DNA of 64,000 nt, taken from contig WIXG01000264.1 of assembly GCA_009869945.1 (NCBI GenBank), positions 49,041-113,040 on the forward strand. Reading direction: 5' to 3'. The translations under genes were made by a program, and so were the position numbers. Below the pieces are notes generated by a model, which saw only the letters and a list, made by a program, of their open reading frames with translations, searched no databases and was not told the DNA's origin. Numbering within the stretch: the stretch's first letter is position 1; each line of letters begins with the position of its first letter. This DNA comes from Mesaphorura yosii (taxonomy: Eukaryota > Arthropoda > Collembola > Poduromorpha > Tullbergiidae). Below are positions 1 to 22,178 of the stretch, one piece after another.

Positions 1-15
1 GACCTGCAGGCACTC

Positions 16-2337
16 ATGTTTACTGCGCCCGCGACTCCATTCGACAAGGAACAATTCCTGGCCTACCTGAGGGACCAAGTCTTCAACGTCATAGATAACG
101 CCGCACATCAGCAGCTGCTGGAATCCATTAGGCACGAAATTAAGCACAATTTCGATGTGTCCCAACATCACGTTCAAGCGCATGAACTCCGATCTTGCAT
201 CGACGGTCTCTGCTCGGAAGATTACGTGGCCCAAGACAAGAAAACTGCGTTACGACAGCTTCAAGACAATTCCGAGGTGCTCTCCGAAGTCGCGACGCTC
301 CTGACAAACAAAATCCGCCACCTTCACCTTTGGGACTGGTCTGCACCCAATGTGAACGTGAATCTGGAGCTGAGTCGAGGGCTGGCCGGGTACTGGCGTG
401 GTGCCTTGAGCGAAGACGTCATCACGATGCTGCTACTGCGGTACATTGGCGTCCAATGGGGCGCCACATTCAAGAGCGCTTTCCTCCGCCTGTACGACCA
501 AATGTGGAAGAGACCCGGAGCACCGTCGGACGGGGTGGGCGTCTACCGCCCGCACTACATGTCCATCAACAGCTTTCGTGAGACAAACTTCCGTTCCAGT
601 CTTCTGTCGGAGCTGCCCGACTCAATGCATTCGCAGTTGGCGAAGAACCCGAACGAGTACGTGCAAGTTGCTTCCGACTCGAGTGCACTTGACATGATCC
701 TGGAGTACGAAGATGAAGGAAATTGTGGCAGCCTGGCTAGCAATGGCATACCGCAGGGGATGGTAAGGGAGAACCAACAATTTAGCTGCGTGTTCGGAGC
801 TCCTGCTCCACAATTTGCTGCAAAAATGAGTAAAAGAGCCGCGCCAGTCGTACCACAACCTCAGACGCCTCAGATCGACATGCGCCAATCGTTCCTCCAC
901 GTCCTGTCCACAGAAATCAAGCTGAGCCACGCCATTCGCCCCTCCTCGCCCTTCGTCGTGGTACAGTCCAACTACGAGCAGTTCGCTGCCTCTTTGCGTC
1001 ACGAACCTCTGCTGGCCATTCTGGAGTTTTTCCACATGCCGCGCATTTGGCTCGACTTCTTCGCCAAGTTTCTGCGCACTCCTTTCGAGAGCCGCGTCCG
1101 TGTTCGTGGAATCCCCGACTCGCATGTGCTCGGCGCGTTCTTTGGGGAGCTGGCCCTCTTCGTCCTTGATTTCCACATCAATAGAGGGACCAGCATCAAT
1201 TTGTACCGGGTTCTCGACCAATTCTGGCTTTGGGGCAACGACCTTGAGAAAGTGACTGCGGCGTGGCGCATTGTGGAGGAATTTGGCGCTACCCTTGGAC
1301 TTCGGGTGGATGCGAAGAAAAGCGGATCAATCATCACGTACGGCGAAATCAAATTGACAGAATTCTGCACGGCAAAGGGGCTCGCGGCCGATGGACAAGC
1401 ACGCTTGCGAATCGCACCGCCTGCACCGTTGCCGTCCGGCTCCGTTCGGTGGGCCTACTTGGAGCTGGCTACAAATGGCCGGTTTACAATCGACCAGCAG
1501 GCGCTCACGTCGTTCACTGAAGAAATGAAGGGGCTTCTGGACAAGGCGGGCTGCACTCTGCAATTCATCAACGTCTACAACAAATACATGGAGTTCTTCG
1601 TGAGGAATTTCGGCCGCAATGCGCTCGTGTTTGGAGACCAGCACGTGGAGCAGATTGTCGACGCCCTGCGACAGATCCACGAGCAGCTTTTCGGGGCACC
1701 GGGGAACGTCGTGCAGGGACTCAAGTCCAAGACGAAATTCGGGCAGCTCCTGACGGGCGGTGCAGAGATCGTGGACGTTTGGGTTTACTGGCCACTCGAA
1801 CGCGGGGGTCTTGGACTCGTGAATCCTTTCTTGGAGATCATGGCGCTGCACGCGACGTACAAGAAGACTTATCCGGACACCGGTGCCCGTGACCGTGAGC
1901 TCGAATTCACGCCGCTGCTGCTGCAGGACAAAAACAACTACGACGCGCACATCAAGGCGATTGAGGAACGCAACAAACGGCGGGCAGACAACTTTGGCGA
2001 TGCTAGAGGGCTGGAGAAAGTGCCCACGTTCGACGAGTACTGCGAGGATCGTGAGTCGGGGGCGGGATTCGGGCACTGGTTCTCTCGCTACGTGAAGCTG
2101 CTTGAGCGTCCGTCGTGCCTCGACCCGCCGACCATCGCCAACGGAGGCTCAGCAGCTGATGCGTTTTACGCCGTGGCGCTGCACGACAACCAGACCGCCA
2201 ACAAGCACATGCAGTGGGTGTACTCGTACTACGAGCCCCAACTCCTTCGCCATTTTGGAAGTATCCAGTTCATCAACACGGAGCTGCTCCCAATGAGCAT
2301 GATTGGCAACATTCGCAAGAGTAAAGTCAAACACTAA
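16..2337 (+). CDS. rvt-type reverse-transcriptase-like protein, single exon, 5' end possibly outside window
   Basis: A 773-residue intronless frame. The frame is open to base 1, so Met at 16 may not be the true start. The central part matches my recall of the single-copy cellular 'rvt' genes known mainly from fungi, bacteria and rotifers. Residues about 317-345 (SNYEQFAASL then LAILEFF) sit at the fingers/motif A position. RGIPDSHVLGAFFGELALF follows at the motif B position. LYRVLDQFWLWG (about 396-407) is at the YxDD-like motif C, and AWRIVEEFGATLGLRVDAKKSGS is the region after it. Fungal relatives, as I remember them, have Asp in motif A and Asp-Asp in motif C. Here these are Asn319 and Asp401-Gln402, so polymerase activity is doubtful. 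AATAAA lies at 2467. The lack of introns beside intron-rich genes could mean horizontal acquisition or a retrocopy. No terminal repeats or endonuclease domain are visible. Confidence 0.72.
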   Translation: MFTAPATPFDKEQFLAYLRDQVFNVIDNAAHQQLLESIRHEIKHNFDVSQHHVQAHELRSCIDGLCSEDYVAQDKKTALRQLQDNSEVLSEVATLLTNKIRHLHLWDWSAPNVNVNLELSRGLAGYWRGALSEDVITMLLLRYIGVQWGATFKSAFLRLYDQMWKRPGAPSDGVGVYRPHYMSINSFRETNFRSSLLSELPDSMHSQLAKNPNEYVQVASDSSALDMILEYEDEGNCGSLASNGIPQGMVRENQQFSCVFGAPAPQFAAKMSKRAAPVVPQPQTPQIDMRQSFLHVLSTEIKLSHAIRPSSPFVVVQSNYEQFAASLRHEPLLAILEFFHMPRIWLDFFAKFLRTPFESRVRVRGIPDSHVLGAFFGELALFVLDFHINRGTSINLYRVLDQFWLWGNDLEKVTAAWRIVEEFGATLGLRVDAKKSGSIITYGEIKLTEFCTAKGLAADGQARLRIAPPAPLPSGSVRWAYLELATNGRFTIDQQALTSFTEEMKGLLDKAGCTLQFINVYNKYMEFFVRNFGRNALVFGDQHVEQIVDALRQIHEQLFGAPGNVVQGLKSKTKFGQLLTGGAEIVDVWVYWPLERGGLGLVNPFLEIMALHATYKKTYPDTGARDRELEFTPLLLQDKNNYDAHIKAIEERNKRRADNFGDARGLEKVPTFDEYCEDRESGAGFGHWFSRYVKLLERPSCLDPPTIANGGSAADAFYAVALHDNQTANKHMQWVYSYYEPQLLRHFGSIQFINTELLPMSMIGNIRKSKVKH

Positions 2338-3723: not shown

Positions 3724-5018
3724 TCTTCGCATCCGCCTTACTTCGGGCAGATTCCAATTTCCGGCCTGCTGCGCCGCTGGCATCTTTATCGATTCATTAA
3801 ATAATGGATAATGGAGGTCAGAGTTCAGAGTTTTGTGAGTTATGTATTTTTCTAGTTATCGAGAAATGCTTCGATTTAGGGTGCTTTCAAACAACAGCAA
3901 CTGCTGAATAAATCATTTCATGAAGAGATTCATCAGTTGATCTTCGTTCTTGTTTACCACCAGTTTCCATTCACTTCGATCATCTGTTCACCGAATCTTC
4001 AAGTAGACAAATACGAAAAACAAAATGCAGCATACCGTCTTAGGATAAACGATAAAGAACATCAATTAGCGCATCGTCTTGCTCCTGCCCCATGGTCTAT
4101 GGTCAAGTCATCAACAGCCTTGTGCCTGTGCCTTGTGTTGCACGTGCACGAGACAATCAAGAGGATAAAAGAGCCGTGAGCGAAGCCAGGAGCTTGTTGA
4201 CCTTACCAACGAGTAAAGTAAATGTCTAAATGTAAAAGTACGAGTACGGCGATGCTGTACGGTCTTGTGCTCCTTGAGCGAGCAGTGTAAAATCTCGTTC
4301 ACCTTCAACTTACTTCACTTGACGTAGTGAGCACAATTAGCGTAAGCGGTAAGCCGAAGCCGAAGCCCAGCCAAGCTTTAAAGTGGTTTTGGACGGGACG
4401 GACGAAAGATTCGATTCACGACTCACCTTCAACACCGGTTTTCCGTGCACCTTCTCAGTTCTCAACTGCTGCAACCAGAAAAGGCTTCGTGTGTCACTAC
4501 AATTCGCCTGAATCAAGGATTTTGTAAGCTTTTCGCCGTAAATTCGACAATTAGCGAGTGCCATTGCGAGTGATTTTCTAGTGATTAGTGTTAATTTAGT
4601 CATTAACTTGAGCAGCGCAAGAGTACTTGTGTTCTTAATAGAAGCTAATTAGAGTAGATTCAGTGAATTGCTTTTGCGTAAACAGAAGAACCGTGTGTAG
4701 AGATCGAAGGCCAGTAAATCTCAGCGGCCTTTCCTTGCAGTTGCAAATAAACATAATGCCAAATTAGTAAAGTAAAGTAAATTTGACTGAGGCTGAGGTG
4801 ATGACATTGAGTCGCGTGAGAATGAGCACGATCACAAGACGCGGATAAGCAAATACGTTGCAATACGTTATCTAAATAGCAAACGAATCAGGCGAGACAG
4901 GCGTGTGAATGGCGAGTGAGTCAAGAATCCTCGTCACAGTCTTTCCGCTGGCGTGATGCCGTGAAGTAAAATACTAAAGTAACGCGAAGTGCAATGAAGT
5001 GAGGCTTTGAATTGTGAA
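3724..5018. other. intergenic, no supported gene
   Basis: 1.3 kb between the GST stop and the acyltransferase start. Short frames occur on both strands without splice-supported extension or recognisable domains. The final few hundred bases should contain the 5' UTR and promoter of the acyltransferase. Confidence 0.5.
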
Positions 5019-7199
5019 ATGGCAATGGAGTCTCCCGATTCGCCATCACCGTCGCCGTCCAAGCCTGACGGCGCGGGTGCGGAGTTTTTGACGACCCGCA
5101 TGCAGTATTTCGAGCAGGAGCTCATCCAATCCATCACCGACCTCGTCAAGAACGTCAGCGAGTACTTCCAGCTCGCGAAGGCGAACGGGGCCTCAACGAG
5201 CAGTTACAGTCACAATGCTAGCGCCAGCGCCAATGCCAGTGGCGGCAGTGTTCTCCGCTTCATTCCTAATTCGTATTTCATCTGGCCCGCAGCAAATGGC
5301 ACGAGTATGAGTGAACAGGAAACGACGCCAGCGCCAGCCTCAGCTGACGTCAGCCCCGGTTTTGGTTTTGGTCGTCTTGACTCGCTGCTCAGGACGTATC
5401 TCTCGTGGGACGACGTCTTCGCTCAACTTCTGCTCCTTCTCAGCCTCGCATTCGTACTCTGGCTCGTGAATCGCCGATTCCTTCGCTGGACGGCACTTGC
5501 GACAGTCACCGAAGTCCTGCTCAGCTGGGCCGTGACCCTCGTCGTCTCTCCACTCGCCCTTCTCGTGTTGGGGCCCATCCTCATCGCACGCGCATGCATC
5601 AGCACCTACCTGCGCCTGTCCGCGAGCGCGTCTCGCGTCTTCCTGGCCAACCCATTCGAGTCAGTCTGGAGCTTCGAGGCCCCGAACTCGCCTTCTTCCT
5701 GCGTCTCTCTCCTGCTCATCGAGGGCGAGTGCGACATGCAACAGATTCGCTCCGTCGTTCTCCGTCGTCTCGTACTGCGTCAAGTCGACGGCGTGTACGT
5801 GAACGACTGCTTTCGTCGGAGACTCCGCACTATCGCGGGATTCGTCGCTTGGGAGCGCGTGGAGCACTTTGACATCACGAATCACGTGCGGACTGCCGCC
5901 GAGCCCGACCGCGTGTGGACAGAGGACGGTGTCTTTCAGGAGCTCGCCGCTCTACATGAAGCGAGCCTCTGCGACCTGCACACTCAGCTCGGGCTGCCGG
6001 AGCGAATCCCGCCGTGGGAATTTCTGGTCTTCCCCAAAATTGTGCAAGGCGACCGGCAATGCTACGGCCTGGCTACTCGCGTCCACCACTCAATGATGGA
6101 CGGAATCTCGATGGGGAACCTCCTCCGGGACTGCCTCGCCGATCGCCCCTTCAAGTTTTCCGTCGACCCCTGCGCTGCTCCTCTCCGCGTCCCTTTCCTC
6201 AAACTCTGCGTGGGCCACGTCCTCTCCATCGTCGCACTGCCACGAATCACGTTCGGAAACCTGTTCTTCTTCGAGAAGAACGCCTTCCATGGGCGCACGT
6301 TGACTGGCCCGAAACACTACGCGTGGTCGAGGCCGCTGCGGATGGAGACCCTCAAGCAGCTGAAGAATATCACGCACACATCCGTGTTTGCTGTGCTCCT
6401 GGCGTGCATCGGCGGCTCCCTGCAGAGACTGTACACGAAGAGGGTGCCCGGCAAAGTGCCAAAACTCATGCATGCGTGTCCTCCAGTTGGTAAATGAAAC
6501 CACCAGTCGCAGGTGTATAAATGGAGACTTTAACTGACAAGCTCGTGACTTTTTCGTTTTCAGCTATACTTCCTTATCCTGATCGCTACCCACGTAACCG
6601 TTTCTCGATCGTCCTCTACCCCGTCCTGCTGGGAGGTGCCAAGACGGCGCTGCACCGCCTGACGCAAGTCTTCGCCGATTCCAAGTCGCTTGCCACGTCA
6701 CCGGACGTTCTCAGCAACTACTACATCGTGTACATGCTCGGTCTGCTCCCGGCCCCGCTCCTGAACGTGCTGGCGCCGCTCGCGCACGCGACATTCACCT
6801 TCAGTAAGTTTCTGCTGCTGTTGTTGCTGTTTACCAAGCGCCGAATTTAATAATTCAAATCGTGGATTCATTTGAATTCGTATAAATCTTTCGTCTTTTA
6901 GTAAAACAAGTGTGTAATAACTTGCAGGCAACATTCCAGGCCCCGCCGAGCCCGTCGAAGTCTTTGGCGGTCATCGCCTGCTAGACATTGGCGCCTGGCT
7001 CCCGATCAAGAACCGTATTGGCATCGGCACGGCGCTGTTCAGCTACCAAGACCGGTTGCGTGTTTCCTTCATCGCGGACAAGGCGGCACTCGCCAATGCT
7101 GACGACGTGGCGCTCCTGCGCGACGGTTTCGAGGACGAAATGAGCGACCTGACTCTGAGCTTGCAGCTTAAATGTGATAAACTGTTCATGGATGAGTGA
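5019..7199 (+). CDS. WS/DGAT-type O-acyltransferase (wax ester synthase-like)
   Basis: Three exons: 5019-6489, 6564-6803 and 6928-7199, 660 residues. The first ATG is at 5019; the upstream frame has no earlier ATG. Two hydrophobic segments near residues 130-190 (LLLLLSLAFVLWLV and a following LLSWAVTLVVSPLALLVLGPILIA) suggest membrane anchoring. The catalytic HHxxxDG signature is present as HHSMMDG near residue 355. A PRNRF motif begins exon 2 and a C-terminal DRLRVSF segment lies in exon 3, both typical of the family. Such enzymes esterify fatty alcohols or diacylglycerol with acyl-CoA at the ER. In arthropods wax esters could serve the cuticle, but the substrate here is unknown. Confidence 0.85.
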
Positions 7200-10864: not shown

Positions 10865-13581
10865 ATGAGTAACAAGATGCTCGACCAAATCGCCAGCATG
10901 CTGGCCGAAGGGAGGCGCAATTCAGCGACGCGGATCTTGACGCTCACCAAAATTCGATCCGGCTCCAATTGCTCCTTGCCTGGCTCGGGACCGCCCAGTT
11001 CTCCGTCGTTGAATCGAAGGGAGTTTAACAGAAGCTTCTCGCGGGTCGACGAGGAAGCGCCAGAGCCATCGCCAGACGATGACCCCACCGAACAGGGCGT
11101 CGGCGCCGGAGTGACAATGCTCGTGGCATCACCCGGCGCGGGCGCCGGCGTGTCAGACGTGGAGTGTCCACTTGCAGTGGCAGATTTCTGCTCGGCGATC
11201 GAAATCAAGCACGATAAAATCCGGGTGTACGATCCAGACCTCTGGCGATGGCAGGGCAAGTAAGTTTAGCCATCAGTTGGCTAAAAATTTAAGTAATTTT
11301 CTAACTGAAAACCTGCCCGCCAGTGCCAATGTTGGAAACACGGTCTCCGCCCTTTATGCCAAGGTGATTGTGATCATGGGCATGACGTTCCCGATGGCCG
11401 AGACGATTTCCACTCACATTCCACCTTCTTACTATGAAGTAAGTTGAACTCTGCATGAATTCTGCAGTTAGTTAGCAATTAATTTACTAGCTAATTCGCT
11501 AATTAAGAATTTCTTCCATCACAATTACTAAACAACCATTAATAAATTCACAGGGTTTCTACCTCTACTTGTACCTTGTGAGTATCTTCGTGATGGCCTA
11601 CCTCTTTGGGCAAATGTTTCACTTCCACCGCAAACTGCATCAGCTGAGCCACAACTGCAGATGCTGGACAAGGAAACTGAGACGCCTGCTGACGTGCAGC
11701 GCCAGCTCAAAGAACTCAGGCACGGACACAGATTGTCAACATCATCACAACCACGATCACTATAGCAGTGACGACGATCATGATCACGACATGACCAGAA
11801 ACGACCTGATTCCAACCATTTACGTGGAAGACACATCTGAACCGAACGACCCGGAAGCGGGCGAAAACGCAAACGTCAGGCACGAGGCCGAAGTCGACGC
11901 GGCCATCGACAATTTTCAGCTGCAGTTGCAGTGCATTCACAAAATTAACGGGCTCGTCCCGAGGAATGCTGCAGGCTGTCAACTGTGCGAGTATCTCGAC
12001 AAGAATGATGCGAGAAGGCTAACTGCTATGCATCGCGGAGGCCCACGCACGAATTTCGGGAGTTTTTACCTGCGGGTAGGAGCAATCGGTACATGACTCG
12101 CGAAAACTTGCGGTTATCCTTGCTTACCTAATGCAAACCCGAAGTCATTGATCGTCCTTGGTTTTTGCTTTGCCCTTTCAGCGTTCGGACTTGGCAGCGT
12201 GATTTACAGCGCGCTGGAATTCGGTCAGTATTTTGAGTTGAAAGACGACTCACGCTGCTACAATACCATGCAGGCGCTCACGCCCGCAGTGCGGATGGTC
12301 TTCACTTTCATGCAGATGTACTTCATTTTTCTCAACTCAAAAGTGGACGTGAGTCGCACGAGTCTGCTCACAGAATTCGGGATGATGCACATGATCGGCA
12401 CGAACCTCGCTGTGTGGCTGAATGTGCTCGTACAGGAGACGAAGCACGAAATCCTGCATTTTTATGATCCGGCCACTGGCACGGTGATTCCGCATGGACA
12501 CGACGGTTTTATGGACCACGCCCACCACGAGCGAACAAGACGAGGCCTGCAGGGCCCTTACAACATGTACGAGTGCAGGCGATCAAATGTCATGGGCTCG
12601 CTCGTGGCCAACGCGTCTCCGTTCCTGTTTCCGTGCACGATCGAGTACTCGCTCATTTGCGCCGCCATCTGTTATGTGATGTGGAAAGAGATGGTCGAAC
12701 GCCGCCTAGCAAGTATTGCCACTAAGCGACTCAGCCAGGCCCCACAGTTTCAACCCACGGTTACGGCAACGGCAGGGCAGCATTCGACGGCAGCAGCAGC
12801 AGCACAGAATCACGGCTCGGACCATTCACATTCTCATTGCCGCTCCCCAAACCAGTACACGGTCGACTGTTCGGGCTCGAACAAAGGCCTCTTCATCGGC
12901 CTCCTCCTTCTCGTCTTCACTATTGTAAGCGTGCTCGTGAACTTCGTACTCCTCAAGCATCGCGAGTACTCCAAGCTGGCCGCCGTCGAGATGCAGGTGA
13001 CCGAACTCATTCTGTGCACCACGTCGACGGTCGCCGTCCTCCTGGGCATGTGGCAGATGCGCCGGTTCCGGTACGAGTCGGAGAAGAATCTGGAGCTCGA
13101 CAACATTTTGCTGCTCGTGGCCCAGTCAGGCTCCGTGCTATTCGACGTCTTTTGCATCATTGGCGAGCAACTTTTCGAGCCATCGGATGGAAGCGGTCGC
13201 GAACACGAAGGCGATCGAGATCCATTCCGCCTCGGACTTGCGATCCCGATCCTCTCCTTCTCGCAAGTCATTCTTCAAACTCTGTTCATTCTCGACGCTT
13301 CCAAGCGCGTGGTCGTGACAAAGAAGCAGGCGAGGAGGAAACCCGGCCGAGAAGTCGTCACATTCCTGCTCGTCTCGAACCTGGCCATGTGGCTCATCAG
13401 CGCCTTTGCGAAGGGCAACAGCGCCTCGCACCCGCATCAGCTCGATTTCTACGGAGTCTGGGCCTGGACGATCATCGCCGACGTCTCCATGCCGCTGGCC
13501 ATCTTTTACCGCTTTCATTCGTCAGTGTGCCTCTGCGAAATCTGGAAAAAGGCTCACAAGCTGAAGACGTACGCGATCTAA
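10865..13581 (+). CDS. otopetrin-family proton channel
   Basis: Four exons: 10865-11259, 11324-11438, 11554-12088 and 12182-13581, 814 residues. A cytoplasmic Ser/Pro-rich N terminus precedes the first membrane helices (NVGNTVSALYAKVIVIMGMTFPMAE and GFYLYLYLVSIFVMAYLFGQ). A long loop rich in His/Asp follows (HHHNHDHYSSDDDHDHD, about residues 232-248). The diagnostic join is FYLRVGAI-AFGLGSVIYSALEFGQYFE across intron 3, followed by RMVFTFMQMYFIFLNSK and a C-terminal set of helices ending in FYRFHSSVCLCEIWKKA. Otopetrins conduct protons across the plasma membrane and serve acid sensing in insects. A second His-rich loop (HSTAAAAAQNHGSDHSHSHC) separates the two halves. Polyadenylation is probably near 13820. 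Confidence 0.92.
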
Positions 13582-20469: not shown

Positions 20470-22178
20470 TTAGATTATAAGGAAATAAATCTCAGGCATT
20501 TGTCCATGGCTCAATTTGTAGCCTACTTGGCCCTTGGCGTTCATAAATTCCCAATTCACTACGTGGTCGCCAGCAACGCCGTCGCCAATCGCGTATTGCC
20601 TGACCCCTCCTATGCCGTACGGCTTTACCGGTCCCTGGAAAATGCAAGACCCACTTTATCAACCAAGATACATTAAGAGACGCCTTTAAGGTAAGGCCGG
20701 ATTTGCGTCTTTCCACAACTTACGTGGACTGTGACCTCGATCGTGTACTTGACTTCGGGCTCCACGGGCACAGGCTCAGGAAATTCGATTCTAAACACGC
20801 CCGAAACACTTGGGAGTTCCACTTTGTCTACAAACTGACCGACCACGAAACTCTCGTCATCATAACTGACGATTTTGACCTCCACAACAACTGTTGAGCC
20901 GCTGGCGTTCCCCTCGCCGGACCCGTACAGGCCCAACCCTGTTATTTCCAGGCTCCTATCAACCTTGAAGCTGATCATGTCCACCTCTGGCTCGGTGTGC
21001 CAAAATGCGTCCGGATTGTCAATCATTTGTTTGTACCGGACCAGCGTGAGCTCTGCTTCTGCTTCTGCTGGTGTTGGTGATGAAAGCATATTCAGGGGGA
21101 AAGGCGAAGATGCAAGGGAATTGCCGGTTGTGGTCATTGAAAGATCCATCAGAATTTCCAAAGTCTTCTTCTCAGGCAGGACTTTTCTTTTGGCCACGTA
21201 TACGACGAATTCCTGATGCGTAAACTGCTTAAAGTCGATGTGGTCGATGGATGGAGACAGAATGTCACGCAATTCACCCGAAATACTTTGTAGGAATTCT
21301 TCGGTCAGCTCCGTGTTTGGATTTGATGCAAGGTCACTGTGACCATGACCGTTCCCACCACACTCACGCTTGTATTCAGCACAACCCCACCGCAGCAGCG
21401 CGTGAAATGCCTCCACCTCACCCACGCGCCGTTGCGGTTGCGATGATTCCAGCAGCACACTGACACTTTGACTGCTCAGTTGCAGGAACCCAGCAGACTT
21501 GAACACCAGACGAGCGTGTTCCAGAATGTACTCCTTTGCCTTCTTCTCCAAAGCTTCTTCACTGTATTCACGGCTCTTCTCGAAAATGAATGCGGCATTC
21601 TGGACCCGAATTCCACCTTGGATTCGGTCCGTACAAATTCTCACTAGCGGGCCGATTTCAAAGTCACGGGCGGCCTTAAGCACGGAGACTGCGTCTTCCA
21701 TCCCAAAGTCGTAGTGTTCGTTGTACAAATACTGAAATACAAGAAAGTAGCCAATTACTTTCAGTGAAAGCCAATCTGTGGTTGATTCGTTGAACGCTTG
21801 GATGCAAAAACTTACTCGAAGGAAGTATCGAAATGGCTCGGGCTCAATCCATCGCATTTCGACGACCAGCGGGTCTTGCTCTGTCGATGGAAATTCGCCG
21901 TATTTGGCAGCAAACGGCCGCGACTGGAGTTTTAGGACTAGTGAATGACATTTGACAGGAGTCCGCTTGCGCCCGACGACACAAATCAGGTCCGAGTAGC
22001 GCCCATGCTCCAGGACAAAGTCCCACTTGCTGGCTATTGTCGGTTCATTCTCACGCCAATCCGGTTCTTCTTCGGAGTTTTCATCGGTCGTCTGGCACGT
22101 CGCCGTGCTGGCGCAAGAGTTAGCGCTGGTATTGATTGACAGCCCGTTGTAATAAGCGCCGAGCTCGTCGTTATCCAT
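20470..22178 (-). CDS. BTB-BACK-PHR domain protein (BTBD6/BTBD3-like)
   Basis: Three minus-strand exons: 22178-21816, 21731-20724 and 20634-20470, all phase 0, 511 residues. The order is: an N-terminal Ser/Thr-rich leader; a BTB domain (GRYSDLICVVGRKRTPVKCHSLVLKLQSRPFAAKY, about 58-150); a BACK-type helical region (ENAAFIFEKSRE-like segment and following, about 165-290); and a C-terminal PHR domain with ITGLGLYGSGEG, FRIEFPEPVPVEPEVKYTIEVTVHGPV and the closing HGQMPEIYFLII. BTBD-PHR proteins act as Cullin-3 substrate adaptors. The 84 bp first intron is a multiple of three and contains no stop, so unspliced RNA would encode 28 extra residues inside the BTB/BACK junction. Confidence 0.88.

Follow-up and report, generated by a model that had tools for sequence, protein, structure and literature searches.

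The rvt genes, reportedly described by Gladyshev and Arkhipova in 2011, are said to be non-mobile reverse transcriptase (RT)-like genes with a long N-terminal part. In the excerpted text of PMC5718144, rvt is the only RT group present in both bacteria and eukaryotes and carries a loop, 2a, before motif 3; the excerpt of PMC10680173 describes single-copy genes under purifying selection through which bacteria, fungi and rotifers better withstand starvation and certain antibiotics, a relief of stress for which intact catalytic residues are needed. The three gene copies considered here, one of which runs into the start of the window (the whole 64,000-nucleotide stretch of Mesaphorura yosii DNA that was analysed), share with rvt the non-mobile RT-like gene, the long N-terminal part and the purifying selection given in the second excerpt (PMC10680173), together with a variable stretch before motif 3 that lies where the first (PMC5718144) places loop 2a. 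They differ from rvt in lacking the motif A Asp and the second Asp of motif C, and in being three where the excerpt of PMC10680173 gives a single copy.

Other known systems are also similar in part. The RT_UG37 profile of PADLOC, a bacterial unknown-group RT, resembles copy A along almost its entire length (E=1.8e-66) but, unlike the copies, favours Asp at the two positions where they have lost it; at 546 and 610 its preference is for Met and Asn, respectively. The DRT9 proteins (PDB 9ioa and relatives) have palm motifs that align with the copies, the alignment being limited to the palm, and differ in having FDF and YADD. The RT-like domain of Prp8 has an RT fold without polymerase function and acts in the spliceosome. 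It is a case of an RT fold kept in eukaryotes for non-catalytic RNA handling (see PMC5678591), as is proposed for the copies; Pfam gave no match to a Prp8 family in any of the three, and a separate origin is assumed. The “RVT” genes of PMC4920403 were rejected as rvt, being in the excerpt of that paper transposons with endonuclease, RNase H or integrase domains. Among the matches listed in a search of the open-licence literature, none described catalytically altered arthropod rvt genes, and a prior mention is possible.

Gene structure and surroundings

The initial annotation placed an open reading frame of 773 codons at 16-2337 (+). This frame is present, but it is a fragment only; it stays open through window base 1 and is the 3′ part of an uninterrupted gene of 951 codons, copy A, inside whose coding frame the window opens. 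From the ATG that follows the upstream in-frame stop, the gene runs from window -518 to 2337 (+; L009:4482-7337) and encodes 951 aa in a coding part without intron; its portion within the window (1-2337, +) was assigned to the rvt/UG37 type on the basis of the ORF, the RT_UG37 profile and the reading of the contig. With random base order at the G+C content of the window, ~2e-15 frames of at least this length would be expected in the genome.

Around the gene are a TATAAA upstream (L009:4111), a candidate 5′ UTR intron that would run from GTAAGT (L009:4377) to a CAG acceptor (4451-4453), and a candidate polyadenylation signal, AATAAA (2467-2472, +), ~130 bases 3′ of the stop codon; all three are sequence matches and no proof of transcription. 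A scan for bacterial promoters around the start codon was negative, which has no bearing on an animal gene, and an Rfam scan of the window gave no match.

The neighbours of copy A look like animal genes, to judge from their sequence. They are a BTB-domain gene upstream of the window (L009:54-638, by Pfam), a chemosensory receptor candidate upstream of copy A (7tm_7, 25.0 bits, just below the cut-off of 26.6) and a glutathione S-transferase downstream of it. TTAGG repeats and an insect-type chemoreceptor are arthropod traits and suggest an arthropod host; TTAGG arrays occur in the genome, with 21 overlapping matches spread over five contigs, and the reversed control gave none. Further along the window lie an ORF resembling the wax ester synthase/diacylglycerol acyltransferase family, which is best known from bacteria and plants (5007-6497; WS_DGAT_cat, 27.6 bits, cut-off 23.6), an Otopetrin gene whose domain match is nearly full-length (12148-13581; E=2.6e-143) and a BTB-BACK-PHR gene (20673-22178, -).

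Copies and family assignment

A protein search of the 93 Mb genome (1127 contigs) found three loci on separate contigs: copy A in the window, copy B (C540) and copy C (C1093). Copies A and B are 61% identical, A and C 62%, and B and C 80%. No fourth copy was found by protein search, with the UG37 profile or with copy C as the query; in these searches the best candidates were scored and introns ignored, and a split copy is possible. Copy A alone is seen complete. Copy C has 637 open codons and is cut by the contig end; in copy B an in-frame TAG (L013:5156-5158) precedes an open frame of 781 codons. The frame upstream in copy B that ends at this TAG (L013:4655-5158) has, by eye, a hydrophobic start like that of a signal peptide.

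The gene is therefore not single-copy, and from its flanks, domains and repeats it does not look mobile. By blastn the flanks of copies B and C show no similarity, the match stopping at the coding end; a search of the 9-10 kb surrounding each copy revealed no direct or inverted repeats of at least 25 bases; and no integrase, RNase H or endonuclease domain was found in the three copies by Pfam at E up to 1. The marks of a retrotransposon RT, namely such domains, flanking repeats and many copies, were thus not found.

The RT_UG37 profile also matches copy B (E=9.8e-56) and copy C (E=3.6e-47), and in a search of the genome copies A and B together accounted, piecewise, for its positions 9-772 of 778, the N-terminal part included. 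By way of this profile, the RT motifs and the similarity to a bacterial counterpart extend over the whole protein; from length, architecture and the RT_UG37 match we infer that UG37 may be the bacterial face of rvt, and we likewise place the copies, by inference, in rvt proper. After RT_UG37 the next profile for copy A is DRT9 (E=1.3e-4), and the sole significant PDB sequence match is a DRT9-type RT chain, 9ioa_A (phmmer E=1.5e-4 with one copy and 5.2e-8 with a three-copy profile).

Searches for bacterial rvt/UG37 relatives added none. In viral contigs 23 stretches fitted a pattern derived from the alignment and none proved to be a relative, while tblastn of plasmids and phages gave nothing at E up to 0.01. 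A motif C pattern had no match in viral contigs; the two genome-contig stretches that did match it were judged to be chance, lying in overlapping frames of other genes, and neither genome has an RT_UG37 match. RT_UG37 was not found in 396 genomes of the phylum of one Bifidobacterium genome (limit 1e-30) or in 40 genomes of one class of that phylum (limit 1e-15), neither of which is proof of absence.

Catalytic and other core positions

In the frame within the window, the position of the catalytic Asp of motif A is held by Asn319 (AAC, 970-972, +; Asn497 of the full protein), and the Asp-Asp pair of motif C is replaced by Asp401-Gln402 (GAC, 1216-1218, and CAA, 1219-1221, +; Asp579-Gln580). The codons read as the initial annotation had them, and its proposal that Asn319 corresponds to the motif A Asp and Gln402 to the second motif C Asp is borne out by phmmer, hhalign and MAFFT, run on natural sequences, which agree. 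In the phmmer alignment to 9ioa_A, SNYEQF falls on FDFSDF (motif A, moderate confidence) and VLDQ on YADD (motif C, high confidence). When the three copies were aligned by hhalign with two DRT9-like proteins taken from viral contigs, the columns were identical (E=3.8e-5, probability 70.8), and MAFFT likewise paired N497 with the motif A Asp of DRT9-type RTs and D579-Q580 with their Asp pair. Catalytic Asp residues elsewhere in the protein were looked for as a refutation, and neither profile nor pairwise alignments placed them so.

The departures are common to the copies. Motif A reads QSNYEQF in copy A and QSSYKQF in both B and C, with Ser at the catalytic position, and motif C reads VLDQFW, VQDQFW and IHDQFW in A, B and C respectively. 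The catalytic Asp set is thus not intact in any of them, motif A having N/S/S and motif C DQ in 3/3 copies. Sequencing error as the source of the altered residues was rejected, as three separate loci agree, and the shared change suggests that the common ancestor of the copies had already lost both Asp residues. The view that HDD is the norm of the family was not confirmed: before the Asp pair, His, Ala and Tyr each score lower on the UG37 profile than the native Leu, and HDQ is present in one of the three copies (copy C).

Two further positions are of note. The motif B region, RGIPDSHVLG (1105-1134, +), contains Asp368 (Asp546; 1117-1119), a position at which the UG37 profile favours Met or Gln, and the motif D region, DAKK (1309-1320, +), contains Asp432 (Asp610), at which it favours Asn; both are invariant in the three copies. 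Lys435 (Lys613) of motif D is Lys in A and B, and copy C has Arg at one neighbouring position.

These positions were probed by scoring 19 single-residue variants of a 152-aa fragment of copy A against the UG37 profile, the native fragment scoring 78.4 bits. Five of the variants raised the score (Q580D by 3.6 bits, D610N by 3.4, N497D by 3.2, D546M by 2.2 and D546Q by 0.9) and 14 lowered it. When Asp was tried at seven positions (495-499, 580 and 581) the score rose only at N497 and Q580, and fell at 495, 496, 498, 499 and 581. Furthermore, N497D and Q580D also raised the DRT9 and UG4 scores, and replacement of Lys613, His548 and Asp579 cost 3.8, 3.4 and 3.1 bits. On these scores Asn319 and Gln402 are the correct residues, and D546 and D610 are two further core positions, at which an Asp goes against the preference of the family. 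UG37 itself, to judge from the probes, retains the standard Asp set. The missing Asp set speaks against the copies being ordinary rvt enzymes but leaves descent from rvt untouched. AlphaFold gave unusable models both for the window protein on its own (pLDDT 33.8) and for the palm supplied with two DRT9-like rows (34.6).

Selection among the copies and alternative explanations

The estimates of selection come from comparisons among the paralogues of a single genome rather than across species, with dN and dS by NG86 and LWL85; whole comparisons use the copies as aligned, copy B being without the part upstream of the TAG. Over the whole, pN/pS is 0.36 for A-B (0.32-0.40), 0.34 for A-C (0.30-0.39) and 0.30 for B-C (0.25-0.36). 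In the palm it is 0.28 for A-B (bootstrap 0.21-0.37; dN 0.22, dS 2.04), 0.24 for A-C (0.18-0.32) and 0.28 for B-C (0.20-0.40; dN 0.15, dS 0.74), and for the C-terminal part A-B gives 0.34 and A-C 0.33. The values are lowest in the palm, with overlapping intervals. Synonymous change has reached saturation between A and either of the other copies (dS by NG86 at least 2.0 or not computable; by LWL85 ~1.7). Purifying selection is thus seen in the whole, palm and C-terminal comparisons (pN/pS 0.24-0.36), with two exceptions. The first is the variable, poorly conserved stretch ahead of motif 3 (alignment columns 400-470; motif 2 was not placed by a profile), which is under little constraint, dN being 1.15 (A-B) and 1.15 (A-C) against dS of 1.68 and 1.24. 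The second is a tract in which B and C have 90-100% nucleotide identity per 30-column block (columns 300-480). Since dS is 0.08 in this tract and 0.73 after it, gene conversion between B and C over the fingers and the variable stretch is likely (L013:5624-6110 and L014:9270-9751); within the tract pN/pS is 0.39, with an interval (0.15-1.10) too wide to inform. A frame full of neutral substitutions, which would have spoken against constraint, was looked for and is not what the three copies show, the variable stretch excepted. As non-synonymous change is well below synonymous, except in that one stretch, the genes in which the Asp losses occurred are under constraint.

All active RTs have the motif A Asp, and catalysis has therefore presumably been lost; in an RT without the motif A carboxylate, and with Gln in the motif C pair, two-metal nucleotide transfer should be abolished. 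The earlier suggestion of constraint without polymerisation is supported by the presence of both departures in 3/3 copies and by the purifying selection, the loss of activity being predicted from the residues, and it is probable that the copies are constrained and without two-metal polymerase activity. The best reading is an old, duplicated rvt pseudo-polymerase that would act non-catalytically, and it is also the simplest, because constraint extends to the remainder of the core and to most of the chain. An arthropod host gene of the rvt kind, in three dispersed copies, would have lost two of the three metal-binding Asp residues, the copies since being retained by purifying selection. The RT body and the remaining pocket (the first motif C Asp, the motif D Lys and the motif B Ser-His) could then still hold RNA ends or nucleotides, or form multimers, and the protein, no longer joining nucleotides, would serve as scaffold or sensor. 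Taken by itself, this binding or scaffold role has somewhat less than even odds. It is less likely again, and only a tentative proposal, that the rvt site has been rebuilt in an arthropod lineage, two Asp giving way to Ser/Asn and Gln and two other Asp becoming fixed at motifs B and D, to yield a nucleotide-sensing pseudo-polymerase family of three members or a relocated-metal enzyme with a new reaction.

Alternatively, the copies could still be active polymerases or terminal transferases with relocated carboxylates, Asp546 of motif B and Asp610 of motif D holding metal with Asp579. This is tenable because these two residues are extra acids near the site; two Asp are lost and two gained in one core in 3/3 copies, and Lys613 and His548, so costly to replace (3.8 and 3.4 bits), are kept in copy A. 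It is nevertheless improbable, given the motif A Asp of all active RTs and the standard set kept by UG37 in the probes; further, the residue at the motif B position in known RTs contacts the sugar of the nucleotide rather than metals.

The lost catalytic residues and the TAG in copy B could also be taken as signs of a decaying family, with three relic copies becoming pseudogenes, but 781 codons in B and 637 in C stay open and B-C pN/pS is 0.30 (0.24-0.36) outside the converted tract. Copy B is not visibly running free, because its unique residues (31) are similar in number to those of C (34; columns 478-973), and we give decay little chance.

Least of all do we expect another RT-derived gene, such as a domesticated transposon RT, merely resembling rvt, and an ordinary transposon RT is rejected. 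In favour of such an origin, RVT_1 matches the copy A protein, below its cut-off (15.2 bits against 29.6), and has 19 loci in the genome, of which those read (L001, L002, L004 and L005) look like retrotransposons. Against it, none of the 19 is among the three copies, the RT_UG37 match runs along the protein with the N-terminal part included, and the copies have unrelated flanks and neither the repeats nor the domains of such elements.

On the pseudo-polymerase reading, the copies should lack the rvt role in stress, since in the excerpt of PMC10680173 that role needs intact catalytic residues. If a lineage keeps and multiplies rvt after losing its catalytic residues, the protein would have a second, non-catalytic job, and such a lineage would be a natural means to separate the catalytic from the non-catalytic job of rvt.
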